NCBI GenBank assembly: GCA_020439175.1
Contig: JAGQTE010000099.1
Span: forward strand, 1-36,720
Direction: 5' to 3'
Source of the DNA: Acidimicrobiales bacterium
GTDB taxonomy: Bacteria; Actinomycetota; Acidimicrobiia; Acidimicrobiales; Acidimicrobilacustridaceae
Length of the DNA: 36,720 nt
Shown piece after piece: positions 1,468 to 6,527 of the stretch (positions within the stretch are counted from its first letter, which is position 1; each line of letters starts with the position of its first letter). The position numbers and the translations under genes are program-made. The notes beneath the pieces were generated by a model, which had not been told where the DNA came from, ran no database searches, and saw nothing but the letters and a program-made list of their open reading frames with translations.

Positions 1468-1643
1468 TCGCTCCTCAGCTGCCCCCGCCATACTGCCGAG
1501 TGGTGCGCCCTTGCGCCGTACGGTCGGCTCGGCGTCGCCGGGACGCTTGCTACGTTGACGCCGTGACGGTGGATACCGGAGCCGCAGCGCACGACCACCC
1601 GCCTCGAGGCCCTGCAGTCCACCGTCCCGATCGACCGGGAGCT

Positions 1644-1803
1644 GTCGATGCGGCACACCACCCTCGGCCGATGCTCCACCCAGAGCCGGGCCGCAGCATG
1701 CGGGTCCCCGCGCCGTCGGAGGTGTCGATGCGGCACAACGCCCTCTGCCGGCCCTGCACCCTGAGCCGGATCGCCGTGTGCAGGTCCCCGCGCCGTCGGC
1801 ACC
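1644..1803. repeat. Imperfect 80-bp tandem repeat, two units
   Basis: Units 1644-1723 and 1724-1803 align without gaps at a period of exactly 80 bp. By direct count 62 of 80 positions are identical. Both begin with GTCGATGCGGCACA, and near their ends both carry GTCCCCGCGCCGTCGG. The best-conserved parts are the two ends and the centre is more variable. A further unit upstream was looked for and not found in register. The function is unknown. Confidence 0.75.
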
Positions 1804-1821
1804 GAATCGGTACCGAATCGG
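1801..1821. repeat. Short direct repeat ACCGAATCGG x2
   Basis: ACCGAATCGG occurs at 1801-1810 and again at 1812-1821, one base apart, so the copies repeat at 11 bp. Related CCGAATTCG sequences recur at 1901-1909 and 1934-1942. The 11-bp phase would place both copies on one face of the helix, as in some regulator sites. No regulator is identified. Confidence 0.5.
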
Positions 1822-1898
1822 CGCCGACGGGCCACGCGACTGTTTGCACCAGCCGTGACCAGGGGTTTCGTCAGCTCATCGCCCCGCCGACCGCACCT

Positions 1899-1912
1899 CA
1901 CCGAATTCGGTG
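1899..1912. promoter_or_regulatory. 14-bp perfect palindrome
   Basis: CACCGAATTCGGTG is a perfect 14-bp inverted repeat about 30 bp past the stop of the flippase-like gene and about 430 bp upstream of arr. With no loop it is a poor terminator and looks more like a dimeric protein-binding site. No partner regulator is visible. Confidence 0.4.
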
Positions 1913-1942
1913 GCCCCCCACGATCACCCGTCGCCGAATTCG

Positions 1943-3157
1943 TCAGCCGACCGATGGGGCGGCATCCAGCCCGGTAGCCGGCTGTGGCTTGCGCCAGCTC
2001 GACTTCGCCGCCCAGATCGCCCAGCCGATCGCCCCGGCCGGCACCTCCAACACATAGGTGAAGGCCCGGAACAGGAACACCGCCGCCAGCGCATCGGCCT
2101 CCGGCGCCCCGAACGCCACCATGATCCCGGCCGATCCTGCCTCGACCAGGCCGACTCCCGACGGCGTCAACGGCACCGTCGTCAACAGCTCGCCGAAGGT
2201 GTACGCCGCCAGCACGTACACCCACCCCAACTCGTCGATGCCCAGCGCCCGCACGCACAGCAGCTGCAGCAAGAACGACGACACCTTGTACAGCCCGATC
2301 CACACGGTCAGCCCGAGCCAGCGGCGCCGCACCAGATCGACGCTCTCGGCACGGAAGTCGAGCACCTTCTGCTTCACCGACTCCTGCGCCGGCCGCCGGG
2401 CGACCCGCAACCCGAACCCCACGACCGCCTGCGCCGCGTCGCCCACCTTCTCGGCGAGCACCTGGCTGCGCATGATCAGCCAGAACACGACGATGGCGCC
2501 GACCAGGATCGCCAGCCCGATCCACGCCGCGATCCCCAGCCCGTGGTCGTCGTCGCCGCGCAGGTTCACCGCCAGCAACGCCAAGATCGGGAACCCCAGC
2601 TTCGAGAAGACGTTCCACACGCCCGACACCAGGATCGACCGCGTCACCTCCACGGGGCGGAAGCCCCACGACATCGTCTGGGCATACGTCGCTCCGATGC
2701 CGACGGCCCCGCCGAACGGCACCACGTTGCTGACCGCCGAGCCGGACAGGTTCAACACGCCCGACTGCGGCACGGTCAGCCCGGGCAGGCTGCGGGCCTG
2801 GAACACCCAGTAGGTCCACATCGACGCGATCCAGAAGGCGAACAGCCCGACCACCGCCAACCCGTCGAGACGGCCGAGCGCCGCGAACACGTCGCGGTAC
2901 TCGGTGTCGAACAGCTTGGGGATGACCAGGGCGAACATCGCCACCGTGACCGCCAGCGACACCAGCGCCTCGACGATCCGTCGTGTCGTCGACTTCGTGT
3001 GCAGCTCCTCCTCGAGGAGCTCGATCGGCGCACCGATCCCGTCGCTCGGACGGTCCGCCACCACGCGGGCACCGACCGCCAGGTGCGGCTCCAGCTCCCG
3101 GTCCAGCTCGCTGGCGCCCTCGCCGTCGTCGGGGGGCGACCCGTCGGCGTCGCTCAC
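1943..3157 (-). CDS. Flippase-like membrane protein (LPG synthase TM / UPF0104 family)
   Basis: This 404-aa integral membrane protein resembles the lysylphosphatidylglycerol-synthase transmembrane-region family (UPF0104, AglD-like). An acidic cytoplasmic N-terminus of about 60 residues is followed by some seven or eight hydrophobic segments. The family signature region reads VPLTPSGVGLVEAG, followed by a final pair of helices, and SNVVPFGGAVG lies near the middle. Members are often found with glycolipid or aminoacyl-lipid genes and are suspected lipid flippases; the catalytic LPG synthase domain is absent here. The GTG start at 3155-3157 overlaps the PIG-L stop codon in a GTGA arrangement, which implies translational coupling. 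I infer a role in moving or completing an envelope glycolipid together with the PIG-L and GT4 genes; the substrate is unknown. Confidence 0.82.
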   Translation of the reverse strand: MSDADGSPPDDGEGASELDRELEPHLAVGARVVADRPSDGIGAPIELLEEELHTKSTTRRIVEALVSLAVTVAMFALVIPKLFDTEYRDVFAALGRLDGLAVVGLFAFWIASMWTYWVFQARSLPGLTVPQSGVLNLSGSAVSNVVPFGGAVGIGATYAQTMSWGFRPVEVTRSILVSGVWNVFSKLGFPILALLAVNLRGDDDHGLGIAAWIGLAILVGAIVVFWLIMRSQVLAEKVGDAAQAVVGFGLRVARRPAQESVKQKVLDFRAESVDLVRRRWLGLTVWIGLYKVSSFLLQLLCVRALGIDELGWVYVLAAYTFGELLTTVPLTPSGVGLVEAGSAGIMVAFGAPEADALAAVFLFRAFTYVLEVPAGAIGWAIWAAKSSWRKPQPATGLDAAPSVG

Positions 3158-3999
3158 GACGTCGACTCCTCCAGCCCGGCGAGGACGTCGTCGATGCCGG
3201 CGCCGGCGGGAGCGGCCGGATCGCGGTACCACTCCGTGCCGAACGCCATGGCGAAGTACTCGTCGGGCAGCGCCAGGAACGCCGCCAGGGTGCGCGTCGA
3301 GCCATCCCCGCTCGTCGCCTGGCTGGCATGGGCCTCCATCGACGCCCGCTTCGCCGCCAGGTGCGCCGACACGTCGATGGCGTGGGTGATCTCGTCGCCC
3401 GGCGTGAACCAGCCGTCGAACGACGTCGGCGCAAAGGTCTCGGGGATCTCATAGCCCAGCGAGCGGGCCAGCTCCACCCCCATCGACATCAGATCCCGGT
3501 TGATGGTCGCCTCCAGGACGCGCGGCGTGCCGGCCAGCGCCGCGGCCCGCGCCCCGACGGCGTGCACCTGCAGGTGGTCGGGATGCCCGTACCCACCGTT
3601 GGCGTCGTACGTGGTCAGCACCTGCGCGCCCTCCTCGACGAGGAGGGCCGCCAACCGCCCCGCCGCCTCGTCGACCTCGACCGCGGCGAACGCCGCCGGC
3701 CCGCCGGCACCGGACAGCCCGGACGCCTCGGCATCGGCGTCCCCCGATCCCGAGTCGCCGTAGCCCAGCACCTCGAGTCGTGCGACGCCGAGCAAGGAGG
3801 CCGAGCGCTGCAGCTCGGCCAGCCGCGTCGTCCCGAGGTCGCCGCCTCGGTACACCTCGGCCGCTTCGCCGACCTCCCCCGCGGTCGCCACCACCAGGAC
3901 CACGCGGTGCCCGTCCGCCGCTGCCTTGGCCATGGTCCCGGCCGTCAGCAAGGCCTCGTCGTCGGGATGCGCGTGGAAGAAGACCAGGGTGCTCGGCAT
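3154..3999 (-). CDS. PIG-L family (MshB/Mca-like) N-acetylglucosaminyl deacetylase
   Basis: The 281-aa protein belongs to the zinc-dependent PIG-L deacetylases. The metal site is clear: AHPDDE (His11, Asp13, Asp14) near the start, and HPDH (His139, His142) inside GGYGHPDHLQVH. The LGYGDSG segment (78-84) and TYDANGGYGHPDH resemble MshB and Mca, the actinobacterial mycothiol-pathway deacetylase and conjugate amidase. Known family substrates are GlcNAc-inositol, GlcNAc-phosphatidylinositol and mycothiol conjugates. The ATG at 3997-3999 has GGGAGG about eleven bases upstream. A CAGAAT -10-like hexamer (4025-4030) lies further up. The stop overlaps the next gene's GTG. A divergent GT4 gene invites comparison with the MshA/MshB or PIG-A/PIG-L pairs, but the exact substrate cannot be read from sequence. 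Confidence 0.9.
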   Translation of the reverse strand: MPSTLVFFHAHPDDEALLTAGTMAKAAADGHRVVLVVATAGEVGEAAEVYRGGDLGTTRLAELQRSASLLGVARLEVLGYGDSGSGDADAEASGLSGAGGPAAFAAVEVDEAAGRLAALLVEEGAQVLTTYDANGGYGHPDHLQVHAVGARAAALAGTPRVLEATINRDLMSMGVELARSLGYEIPETFAPTSFDGWFTPGDEITHAIDVSAHLAAKRASMEAHASQATSGDGSTRTLAAFLALPDEYFAMAFGTEWYRDPAAPAGAGIDDVLAGLEESTS

Positions 4000-4024
4000 G
4001 TGGTGGAGAACCTCCCGACGAGAC

Positions 4025-4030
4025 ATTCTG
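4025..4030 (-). promoter_or_regulatory. Candidate -10 for the PIG-L operon
   Basis: On the minus strand this hexamer reads CAGAAT, matching NANNNT. A start about seven bases on would give a roughly 20-nt leader that contains the GGGAGG ribosome site. No strong -35 was recognised. Confidence 0.35.
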
Positions 4031-4068
4031 GCGCGCCCGGGCGGCTGTGGCGGGCCCATCCGCCGGGC

Positions 4069-4074
4069 TACCGT
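4069..4074 (+). promoter_or_regulatory. Candidate -10 for the GT4 gene
   Basis: TACCGT fits the actinobacterial TANNNT -10. It lies 60 bp upstream of the GTG start, so the transcript would have a leader of about 50 nt carrying the GGAGG at 4125-4129. Confidence 0.35.
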
Positions 4075-4134
4075 GGACGACGCGCCGGCGCCAGCTGCCG
4101 AAGGTCGACCGGGCCGGCGCACCTGGAGGCGGCA

Positions 4135-5298
4135 GTGGCCAGCGACAAGCCCCAACCCGAAGGTGGCGCGCTCAAGATCGGTCTCGTGTCGGACTGCTAC
4201 GTGCCGCGCCTCGGCGGCATCGAGATGCAGGTCCACGATCTCGCCCGTCACCTCCAGGCCGCCGGGCACGAGGTCGTCGTGATCACCCCCACCCCTGGGC
4301 CCGACGTCGTCGACGGCGTGCGGGTCCACCGCATGGACGTCCCGCTGGCGCCGTTCGACATCCCGTACGCGCCGTCGACGTTCGCGCTGGTCAGCGACCT
4401 GCTCGAAGCCGAGCACGTCGATGTCGCGCACTTCCACGGCGGCATCGTGTCGCCGGTGGCGTTCGTCGGCGGCTACGACGCCCAGAAGCGCCACATCCCC
4501 ACCGTCATCACGACGCACTGCCTGTGGAGCTATGCCACGCCGGCGTTCCGCGCCCTCGACCGCACGCTGCACTGGTCACGGTGGAACGCCGTGTTCTCGG
4601 CGGTCAGCGACGTGGCGGCCGAACCGATCCGCAAGATCGCCCCGGGACGCGACGTCGTGATCATCCCCAACGGGATCGAGAACGACACCTGGACGGTCGA
4701 GCCCGTCGAGCGGGACGACGACGAGGTCGTCATCGTGTCCGTCATGCGCCTGGCGCCGCGCAAGCGGCCGCTGCACCTGCTCAAGATGTTCCACGAGGTC
4801 GTCGACCGCATCCCCCGCTCGGCCTCGGCGCGCCTGGTGATCATCGGCGAAGGTCCCGAGCAGTCGAGCATGGAGAAGTACCTGTCGGCGACGCACCTCG
4901 CCGACAAGGTCGAGCTGACGGGGCGCCTCGAGCGAGCCGACATCCGCGAGCGGTTCGCCCGCGCCGACGTCTTCGTGGCGCCGGCGAACCTCGAGTCGTT
5001 CGGCATCGCCGCGCTCGAGGCCCGCTGCGCCGGGCTGCCGGTCGTCGCCAAGTCCCGCACCGGGGTGCGCGAGTTCGTCCGGCACGAGCAGGAGGGCCTG
5101 CTCGCCCGCTCCGACAAGGACATGGTCGACCAGCTCGTGCGCCTGGTCACCGATCCCGCCCTGCGGCGCCGCATCGCCGAGCACAACCGCACCACCCCGT
5201 CGGCCGTCGACTGGACCGAGGTCGTGGCCCACAACGTCGAGGTGTACCGCAAGGCGATCGCCCAGGCGGGCACGCCTCAGATGGGCAGCACGCGATAG
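4135..5298 (+). CDS. GT4-family glycosyltransferase
   Basis: The 387-aa protein is a retaining GT-B glycosyltransferase of family GT4. The N-terminal Rossmann half opens with GLVSDCYVPRLGGIE, with a glycine-rich acceptor loop at 27-30. The C-terminal half carries the nucleotide-sugar motif ESFGIAALE, where Glu287 and Glu295 form the EX7E pair, and the donor-binding segment VVIIPNGIE. Length is typical. GTG 4135-4137 was chosen because GGAGG (4125-4129) sits five bases upstream. It is transcribed divergently from the PIG-L deacetylase. Relatives include PimB-type mannosyltransferases and MshA; the N-terminus does not look like canonical MshA. I infer transfer of a hexose or GlcNAc to a lipid or inositol acceptor. 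The last 22 bp overlap the convergent gene at 5277. Confidence 0.9.
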   Translation: MASDKPQPEGGALKIGLVSDCYVPRLGGIEMQVHDLARHLQAAGHEVVVITPTPGPDVVDGVRVHRMDVPLAPFDIPYAPSTFALVSDLLEAEHVDVAHFHGGIVSPVAFVGGYDAQKRHIPTVITTHCLWSYATPAFRALDRTLHWSRWNAVFSAVSDVAAEPIRKIAPGRDVVIIPNGIENDTWTVEPVERDDDEVVIVSVMRLAPRKRPLHLLKMFHEVVDRIPRSASARLVIIGEGPEQSSMEKYLSATHLADKVELTGRLERADIRERFARADVFVAPANLESFGIAALEARCAGLPVVAKSRTGVREFVRHEQEGLLARSDKDMVDQLVRLVTDPALRRRIAEHNRTTPSAVDWTEVVAHNVEVYRKAIAQAGTPQMGSTR

Positions 5299-6527
5299 AT
5301 CTGGCCTGACGTGGCGAACACCCACAGCTCGCCGTCGTTGTCCGTGCCGAACCCGCCCAGACCGCCCGGCGGCAATGCCGCGCCCAACGACCGCTGATCC
5401 TGCGCCACCCGGTTCGCCACCACCAGGCCCTCGACCACCCCGCTGCAGCCCTCGCCGAAGACGTAGGCGCCTCGCAGCGCCGGGATCGCCGCACCCCGGT
5501 ACACGGCGCCCTGGCGGAGGTCGCAGTGCCCCGGCGGCGTGATCGACACCACCGCGCCGGCCGTGTTCTGCGCCCCCGGATAACCGAGGTTGTCGCCCCG
5601 GCCGGCCTGGCTGTTCTGCCGGGGCAGGTACACGATCGTCTCGCCCGCATCCTGACGGTCGGTCACGTACAGGTCGGCCGAGGCCCGGTCGAAGACCACC
5701 CCACGCGGATCGTGCACCCCCAGGAGCCACACCTCCCCGGCGCCGCCGCCGGCGGCGTACGGGTTGCCGGGCGGCACGGCGTAGGCCTGATCGCCGAGCG
5801 CTCCTTCGGGGTCGAGGCGCAGCACCTTGCCGTACAACGAGTCCGGCCGTTGCGCCGCGCCCGGATCGCCGTCGGGGGTGCCCACGCCCACGTACAGGAA
5901 GCCGTCGCGACCGAACGCCAGGGCCCCGCCCCGCCGCAGGCCGTCGGGCGCCTCGACCCGCAGCAGCTGGAAGCGGCTCGACGTGTCCAGGTCGCCCTCG
6001 CCGGTGCGGTACTGGTCGACGACGACCGCCCCGTCCGAGGAGATGTACGACAGGTACATGCGCCGCCCGTCCGACGAGTAGGTCACGCCGCGCACACCGC
6101 CGCCGTCGCCCTGGTCGACCTGACGGCCGATGTCGAGCATGGTCCACGACTCCACGCGGTAGTCCGCCCCGGCGGGCTGGCCGTCACCGTCGTAGCGATA
6201 GTTCGCCGACAGCTGCCGCAACCGGCCGTTGCGCTCGGCCACCGTCAGGTGCGGCCACCCCGGCCGCGCCGCGATCGCCACCGGGTCATCGAGGGCGCCG
6301 ACCTCCTCGAGCCGCACCCCGACCCCCTCGAGCGTCGTCGGCCGCTCGACCGTCGACGCCGTCACCGCCTCGGCGTCCACCGGGATCGTGATGGTGGTCG
6401 TCGTCGACGGTCGCACCTCGGACAGCTTGCGCCCGTGCACGCAGCCGGCCGCCGGCACGACGATCGCCGCGGCGAGCACGAGGCCGGCGGCGGCGCGTCG
6501 CCGGGTGGTCTGGGGTGGAGTGGTCAC
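5277..6527 (-). CDS. PQQ-dependent sugar dehydrogenase-like lipoprotein (GSDH propeller)
   Basis: This 416-aa protein has a lipoprotein signal peptide: a twin-Arg-like basic run at 9-11, a hydrophobic stretch, and the lipobox PAAGC with Cys29. It should be anchored on the outer face of the membrane. The mature part resembles the soluble glucose/sorbosone dehydrogenase beta-propeller, with repeated blades such as GGALAFGRDGFLYVGVG, LLGVHDPRGVVFD and FGTDNDGELWVF. Propellers of this family bind PQQ and Ca2+ and oxidise aldose sugars, but many lipoprotein homologues are uncharacterised and I cannot confirm cofactor residues. The only plausible start is a GTG at 6525-6527 with a weak ribosome site. 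It follows tesB by 10 bp and is probably cotranscribed. Its 3' end overlaps the convergent GT4 gene by 22 bp. Confidence 0.8.
   Translation of the reverse strand: MTTPPQTTRRRAAAGLVLAAAIVVPAAGCVHGRKLSEVRPSTTTTITIPVDAEAVTASTVERPTTLEGVGVRLEEVGALDDPVAIAARPGWPHLTVAERNGRLRQLSANYRYDGDGQPAGADYRVESWTMLDIGRQVDQGDGGGVRGVTYSSDGRRMYLSYISSDGAVVVDQYRTGEGDLDTSSRFQLLRVEAPDGLRRGGALAFGRDGFLYVGVGTPDGDPGAAQRPDSLYGKVLRLDPEGALGDQAYAVPPGNPYAAGGGAGEVWLLGVHDPRGVVFDRASADLYVTDRQDAGETIVYLPRQNSQAGRGDNLGYPGAQNTAGAVVSITPPGHCDLRQGAVYRGAAIPALRGAYVFGEGCSGVVEGLVVANRVAQDQRSLGAALPPGGLGGFGTDNDGELWVFATSGQIYRVLPI

Follow-up and report, generated by a model that had tools for sequence, protein, structure and literature searches.

What would an actinobacterium do with a glycosyltransferase of family GT4, a PIG-L deacetylase and a flippase-like membrane protein that are encoded side by side? 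This question is raised by a locus of an Acidimicrobiales bacterium, which lies on contig JAGQTE010000099.1 of assembly GCA_020439175.1. The stretch analyzed, positions 1 to 36,720, is termed the window here; it is contig 498 of an assembly of 3.83 Mb in 562 contigs that is 94% complete. An original prediction, made from the letters of the DNA, had read the three genes as a route to a de-N-acetylated envelope glycolipid rather than mycothiol. Domain logic and the precedents of the gpgSDF and hexSDF operons support that reading, and it is from these that we infer a glycolipid product. We propose, with a rough probability of two in three, that the trio makes and exports a glucosamine (GlcN)-bearing membrane phospholipid.

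Gene layout and predicted activities

The presence of the three genes was borne out, with refined coordinates and clear Pfam domains. The features of the locus are:

1943 to 3157, minus strand: MprF-flippase-like membrane protein (PF03706 / UPF0104, TIGR00374), 404 aa
3154 to 3999, minus strand: PIG-L (LmbE-like) N-deacetylase, 281 aa
3154 to 3157, minus strand: GTGA overlap of 4 bases between PIG-L stop and flippase start, read from the sequence
3955 to 3975, minus strand: HAHPDDE motif, PIG-L residues 9-15, with zinc His/Asp and catalytic Asp (19-row alignment)
3574 to 3594, minus strand: GYGHPDH motif, PIG-L residues 136-142, with Tyr, His and the third zinc ligand His (19-row alignment)
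4000 to 4134, no strand: gap of 135 bp between the divergent start codons, read from the sequence
4135 to 5298, plus strand: GT4 retaining glycosyltransferase, GTG start, 387 aa
4993 to 5019, plus strand: E-x7-E motif (ESFGIAALE) of GT4 enzymes (17-row alignment)

The deacetylase belongs to the PF02585 superfamily (89.2 bits in the Pfam profile search, gathering cut-off 28.2) and matches MshB entries of the Protein Data Bank (PDB) at 7e-20. Its HAHPDDE and GYGHPDH motifs are invariant in the 19 aligned trio PIG-Ls, including H11, D13, D14 and H142, and the zinc His/Asp/His set and the catalytic Asp are retained. The MshB residues for its substrate GlcNAc-Ins, where GlcNAc is N-acetylglucosamine (His13, Asp15, Asp16, Arg68, Tyr142, His144 and His147), all correspond to invariant positions in these 19 proteins, and Asp95 is, by inspection, also paired with an invariant residue. 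The roles of the zinc, catalytic and substrate-binding residues of MshB are those given in passages of PMC4101496. Because the zinc ligands, the catalytic Asp and the equivalents of Arg68, Tyr142 and His144 are kept, the PIG-L should remove acetate from a GlcNAc glycoside, and this glycoside possibly sits on inositol.

The glycosyltransferase scores 118.1 bits with Glycos_transf_1 (PF00534, cut-off 26.4) and 84.6 bits with PF13439. The E-x7-E motif has a role in GT4 enzymes, and here E287, S288, F289, G290, A292, A293, L294 and E295 are invariant in 17 rows (L071, L076, L088 and L121 were left out; L numbers denote loci). The best NCBIfam model is BshA (TIGR03999), with 117.9 bits under an equivalog cut-off of 273.7. 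An AlphaFold2 (AF2) model of the protein (pLDDT 87.3) finds MshA as top match in the PDB (Z 36.9, root mean square deviation (rmsd) 2.5, 355 aligned residues), next to BshA (Z 36.4, rmsd 3.0, 348 aligned), and sucrose-phosphate synthase ties with them (Z 36.3). PimA, which glycosylates phosphatidylinositol (PI), stands at rank 12 (Z 33.1, rmsd 3.7, 349 aligned). Since MshA and BshA, both UDP-GlcNAc users, are nearest to the model, GlcNAc is favoured as the transferred sugar. As modelled, the fold is compatible with any GT4 acceptor class. We take Lys78, Tyr110, Thr134 and Arg154 to be acceptor-pocket residues of MshA; in an alignment with the MshA of the same genome the window GT4 has a gap in place of the Lys78 segment, which is no more than a hint.

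The third protein is likely a MprF-like lipid flippase, as predicted from its profile and model. It exceeds the gathering score of LPG_synthase_TM (PF03706, 76.4 bits, cut-off 33.4) and the cut-off of TIGR00374 (46.4 against 43.2). When its AF2 model (pLDDT 79.5) was compared with the PDB, five matches reached probability 1.00, all of them to MprF, a lipid flippase/synthase (E 2e-4 to 8e-3, TMq 0.50-0.51, rmsd 7-8), while the sixth match has a probability of 0.23. Rows L057, L088, L112 and L121 were left out of the flippase alignment; in L088, L057 and L112 stop codons lie within the coordinates taken for alignments.

The donor, acceptor, product, sidedness, flipping direction and physiological role that we infer may be put in three steps. 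The GT4 would act on the cytosolic side and attach GlcNAc, taken from UDP-GlcNAc, to a phospholipid of the membrane at its head group; PI is the most likely acceptor. The zinc-dependent PIG-L would then strip the acetyl group and leave a free, positively charged amine. Finally, the MprF-flippase-like protein would bring the GlcN-lipid into the outer leaflet, which would make the surface less negative.

The GTGA junction between the deacetylase and UPF0104 genes, which had been noted before, is confirmed as a 4-base overlap at 3157-3154 and suggests translational coupling of the two genes. The prediction of a divergent promoter held in part: the GT4 and PIG-L genes do start divergently, but no promoter was recognised between them. 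No sigma-70-type site was found in 1500-5500, with a consensus that is ill suited to GC-rich actinobacteria. The start codons of the two genes nearly touch in many relatives, and a shared intergenic promoter is therefore not conserved. A single shared promoter was rejected on both grounds.

Conservation and descent of the trio

Linkage of the three genes had been named as a check on the prediction. It is strongly conserved, and the recurrence of the same arrangement in several lineages is not chance. In the window's own family the trio is present in 31 of 37 genomes; four of the others have an unlinked PIG-L only and two have no match at 1e-40. A divergent GT4 is found at 30 of these 31 loci (L037 stops at a contig edge) and a co-directional flippase gene also at 30 (L027 has none). 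Beyond the family, we scanned the best 80 of 350 relatives with named genomes, with PIG-Ls 52-58% identical to that of the window. These come from Streptosporangiaceae, Pseudonocardiaceae, Actinopolymorpha, one Streptomyces and five metagenome-assembled genomes (MAGs), one of them labelled Acidobacteria. The GT4 gene is divergent at 79 of the 80 loci, with a Lentzea (L125) as the exception; its start is strictly divergent in 46, and 33 others have extrapolated starts with an overlap of 2-9 bases. The flippase gene follows downstream in the same direction at 76 of the 80.

Sampling of larger groups gave a similar picture. Among the 341 genomes searched in the Nonomuraea family, 179 contain a match to the trio PIG-L at 1e-60. 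We checked 38 loci among these, the 30 nearest and 8 weaker ones, and every one carries the trio; 19 of the 30 nearest loci (L135-L164) are contigs of the named set, which leaves 11 of them, together with the 8 weaker ones, as additions. Of the 390 genomes searched in the Streptoalloteichus family, 27 match at 1e-70, five of these being named loci too; a GT4 gene lies within 1.5 kb in 24 of the 27, and both partners are present in 23. Across a phylum-wide sample 15 of 396 genomes match at 1e-60, with seven trios (four from the window's family, three from one other family) and eight unlinked genes.

The pairwise distances of the three trio proteins co-vary over 43 loci (r = 0.83-0.93), to which shared species history contributes. 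Clustering of open reading frames (ORFs) at 49 chosen loci, with clusters judged by example sequences, recovered the GT4 in 42, the flippase in 37 and the PIG-L in 33, recurring across lineages. False ORFs, which arise in GC-rich DNA, depress such counts, and the trio counts were therefore taken from tblastn. Among the 49 loci no extra partner gene recurs widely across lineages. The other clusters mostly stay within a single lineage: those of glucose/sorbosone dehydrogenase-like (GSDH), GtrA, beta-glucosidase and methyltransferase genes recur beside the trio within the window's family only, which fits ordinary chromosome synteny. A search of plasmids gave a single match, an 11.85-Mb Nonomuraea gerenzanensis record that is evidently a chromosome, and there is thus no sign of plasmid spread.

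The descent of the deacetylases was followed in a maximum-likelihood tree of 101 chosen rows, rooted at the midpoint, in which the bootstrap was not fully settled. All 52 trio-labelled rows, together with six unlinked ones, form one clade (100/100), and the 21 MshB/Mca rows stand apart (100/99). The 52 include L125, without divergent GT4, and L116, without flippase; L120, with the flippase gene on the other strand, and L027, without flippase, are incomplete as well. Most of the unlinked rows (22 of 28) lie outside the trio clade.

In total, 41 PIG-L loci whose proteins are about half identical to that of the window have neither a GT4 nor a flippase gene adjoining. Sixteen of them, L173-L184 (12) and L216 with L226-L228 (4), had been chosen, as second or lower-scoring copies, at a stage when their neighbours had not yet been inspected. 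The other 25 (L188-L212) are what remained of 28 matches after L185-L187, which have partners, were set apart; their flanks covered 1.5 kb or reached to the contig end. Since part of the 41 was sorted after the neighbours had been seen, they are a separate unlinked group and not an independent control. Among 38 class-level matches outside the family 22 were checked, and all 22 are unlinked. Many of the families sampled in the window's class have an unlinked PIG-L paralogue (for instance L181-L184, L188-L212).

The immediate neighbours in the window can be described briefly. Next to the flippase gene, at 946-1470 on the minus strand, lies an Arr-type rifampin ADP-ribosyltransferase gene (NF033144, 178.6 bits, cut-off 130). 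An Arr-type gene in this place is probably ordinary. On the other side a GSDH gene (PF07995; 5277-6527, minus strand) adjoins the trio, as it does in family relatives. The GT4 and GSDH genes overlap end to end in the window, with no PAP2_3 gene there. Between the two, four relatives from the family have a gene for a membrane protein of the PAP2_3 type (PF14378; L214:9602-10417, L215:5238-6080, L218:9421-10332, L223:9326-10150). Pairs of GT4 and PIG-L genes with no adjacent flippase gene were seen at L027/L214, L061, L086 and L116, and these two genes may form the core of the trio.

Precedents and the choice of acceptor

The acceptor that we favour is PI. This choice would fit PimA as a structural relative of the modelled GT4 and the retention of the residues of an inositol-glycoside deacetylase of the MshB type. 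PIG-A is the GT4 GlcNAc-transferase that precedes the PIG-L step of the glycosylphosphatidylinositol (GPI) anchor in eukaryotes. There, PIG-L acts on a membrane lipid and converts GlcNAc-PI to GlcN-PI (passages of PMC4101496). The likeness has its limits: the eukaryotic transferase has multiple subunits, in contrast to the two small proteins encoded here, and no later GPI step was seen with the trio. Literature searches for bacterial GlcN-PI genes gave nothing among the matches listed.

The closest precedent in logic is gpgSDF of Pseudomonas aeruginosa, for which PMC12713373 describes a GT4, a COG3233 deacetylase (GpgD, Table 2 there) and a UPF0104 flippase that lead to GlcNAc-phosphatidylglycerol and then GlcN-phosphatidylglycerol. 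The pathway is supported there by transposon mutants, by a complemented gpgD mutant and by expression of the genes in E. coli, while the flipping activity is putative. Like gpgSDF, the trio combines a GT4, an N-deacetylase and a UPF0104/COG0392 flippase, and in gpgSDF GlcNAc is added and then de-N-acetylated. The two differ in layout, one operon against divergent genes, and in the deacetylase, COG3233 against PIG-L. By this analogy the trio would work like gpgSDF without being a member of it.

It might then make the same lipid: a convergent route to GlcN on phosphatidylglycerol (PG), for which gpgSDF demonstrates just this three-function logic. We consider this unlikely. The window GT4 reaches 38.6 bits with the GpgS equivalog (NF053787, cut-off 480), and no protein of the genome passes, the best having 78 bits. 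The window deacetylase matches PF02585 only and is not of the COG3233 type to which GpgD belongs, although such mismatches of family and score are still compatible with the same product. In the lipid literature, a passage of PMC8049491 lists type-IV Microbispora without PG, yet PG is reported for one Nonomuraea in an excerpt of PMC11091084.

A neutral glycolipid or diacylglycerol (DAG) as acceptor is likewise improbable. Here the model would be hexSDF of Clostridioides difficile, which makes the aminohexosyl glycolipid HNHDRG and affects daptomycin and bacitracin resistance (passages of PMC10128005). As in the trio, a synthase, a deacetylase and an MprF-like flippase come together in hexSDF, with the aminohexosyl lipid tied to daptomycin resistance; a linked glycosyltransferase, N-deacetylase and MprF-like flippase is indeed the layout common to gpgSDF, hexSDF and the trio. 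Differences from the trio lie in the annotation of HexS (MGDG synthase) and HexD (polysaccharide deacetylase) and in the acceptor, a neutral glycolipid (same passages). The window GT4 does match the alpha-monoglucosyl-DAG synthase family, but its 89.5 bits are far below the cut-off of 400, and no further gene recurs by the trio across lineages in the 49 clustered loci.

Still less probable is an intermediate that is polyprenyl-linked or a polysaccharide as the substrate of the GT4, with PIG-L and flippase processing an exported glycan. In favour of this, profiles of polysaccharide GT4 families give similarly low scores (84-88 bits, well below their cut-offs); against it, no other gene family is widely recurrent beside the trio across lineages, as judged by example sequences at the 49 loci.

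The remaining alternative, a low-molecular-weight thiol made by GT4 and PIG-L (mycothiol through MshA/MshB, or a BshA/BshB-like product) with the membrane protein as bystander, is very unlikely and already largely refuted. MshA, MshB and BshA are the nearest named relatives of the trio enzymes by profile or fold, with zinc and substrate residues in common, and MshA is the top structural match of the GT4 model. MshB (TIGR03445) is also the best named family for the window PIG-L, with 142.6 bits under an equivalog cut-off of 224.35, as BshA is for the GT4. However, a far better MshA is encoded on contig C463 of the genome (386.3 bits against 72.9 for the window GT4 with TIGR03449; both are under the cut-off of 462.5), and the window GT4 is the tenth of 22 matches to this profile. 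An mshC-like gene lies on C92 (416 bits, cut-off 485), mshD on C341 (178 bits, above cut-off) and mca on C171 (320 bits, above cut-off). The prediction had advised a look for such genes elsewhere, and with them located its claim that the trio is not for mycothiol holds, while the MshB of the genome is not settled. None of the seven PIG-L matches, one of them a contig-end fragment, reaches the MshB cut-off, and the window gene ranks only third (Mca gene 204, C373 180, window 143, others below 50 or none). The C373 PIG-L (L003, L180), an unlinked paralogue, may be this MshB. In Nonomuraea typhae a separate PIG-L passes as MshB (339.3 bits) and its own trio PIG-L does not (138.1 bits); another trio relative has 143.6 bits, also under the cut-off. 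The window PIG-L falls outside the MshB clade of the tree, and the trio differs from the Msh and Bsh enzymes in clade, in separate loci, in scores under the family cut-offs and in its extra flippase, a conserved partner that would be senseless for a soluble thiol. On the better MshA, the presence of Mca, the separate clade and the separate MshB of N. typhae, the mycothiol route was rejected.

Several points weigh against the GlcN-phospholipid reading. The fold of the GT4 cannot name an acceptor, and its top matches, MshA and BshA, use soluble acceptors. A co-directional adjacent flippase gene is absent from 5 of 111 loci (80 named and 31 family loci): L061, L086, L116 and L027 have none adjacent, and in L120 it lies on the opposite strand. 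Six unlinked PIG-Ls (L174, L175, L177, L178, L179, L194) are nested within the trio clade; they may be copies that left the cluster, possibly for a new substrate. The trio is uncommon in the phylum, with at least 7 of 396 sampled genomes at 1e-60. Furthermore, passages of PMC12983401 give the lipids of Saccharothrix camelliae as phosphatidylethanolamine (PE), PI, phosphatidylinositol mannosides (PIM), diphosphatidylglycerol (DPG) and OH-PE, without a glucosamine lipid; for S. longispora they list just PE and DPG. Saccharothrix is counted among the carrier genera because of a single MAG with that label (L094).

A link to the type-IV phospholipid marker

The GlcN-phospholipid reading can be taken one step further. 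Phospholipids positive for ninhydrin and for sugar are described from Streptosporangium roseum, whose genus is assigned phospholipid type IV (excerpt of PMC3035251), Nonomuraea has ninhydrin-positive phosphoglycolipids (excerpt of PMC10694255), and Microbispora is of type IV with unknown glucosamine-containing compounds (passages of PMC8049491, where the type scheme is cited to Lechevalier 1977). All three genera are among the named trio loci. Genera of the Streptosporangiaceae that are described with the glucosamine lipid GluNu carry the trio; GluNu is a lipid phenotype and not a gene family. Actinomadura, described in passages of PMC8631618 as type I and non-nitrogenous, with A. graeca showing a phosphoglycolipid too, is not among the best 80 of 350 named relatives. 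About half of the Nonomuraea-family genomes (162 of 341) are without a PIG-L match at 1e-60. Nearer to the window, in the class Acidimicrobiia, polar lipids of Iamiaceae include aminophosphoglycolipids in Actinomarinicola tropica and DPG, PI and PIM in Iamia (excerpt of PMC12263773). Among the matches listed, no title or abstract names genes for the GluNu or type-IV lipid, and the type-IV literature, in the passages available, gives neither structure nor genes for GluNu.

It is conceivable, if for now doubtful, that the trio is the pathway for GluNu, the ninhydrin-positive phosphoglycolipid, that this lipid is glucosaminyl-phosphatidylinositol made by the first two steps of GPI-anchor synthesis and then flipped, and that the window's lineage makes it as well.

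What would be new here is a PIG-L-based, divergent, actinobacterial version of the way in which gpgSDF and hexSDF arrive at cationic glucosamine lipids. The trio would supply proposed genes for GluNu, the type-IV lipid marker used in actinomycete classification. In C. difficile, hexSDF affects daptomycin and bacitracin susceptibility (passages of PMC10128005). If the acceptor is indeed PI, the trio would be a bacterial route to GlcN-PI, an intermediate of the eukaryotic GPI pathway.

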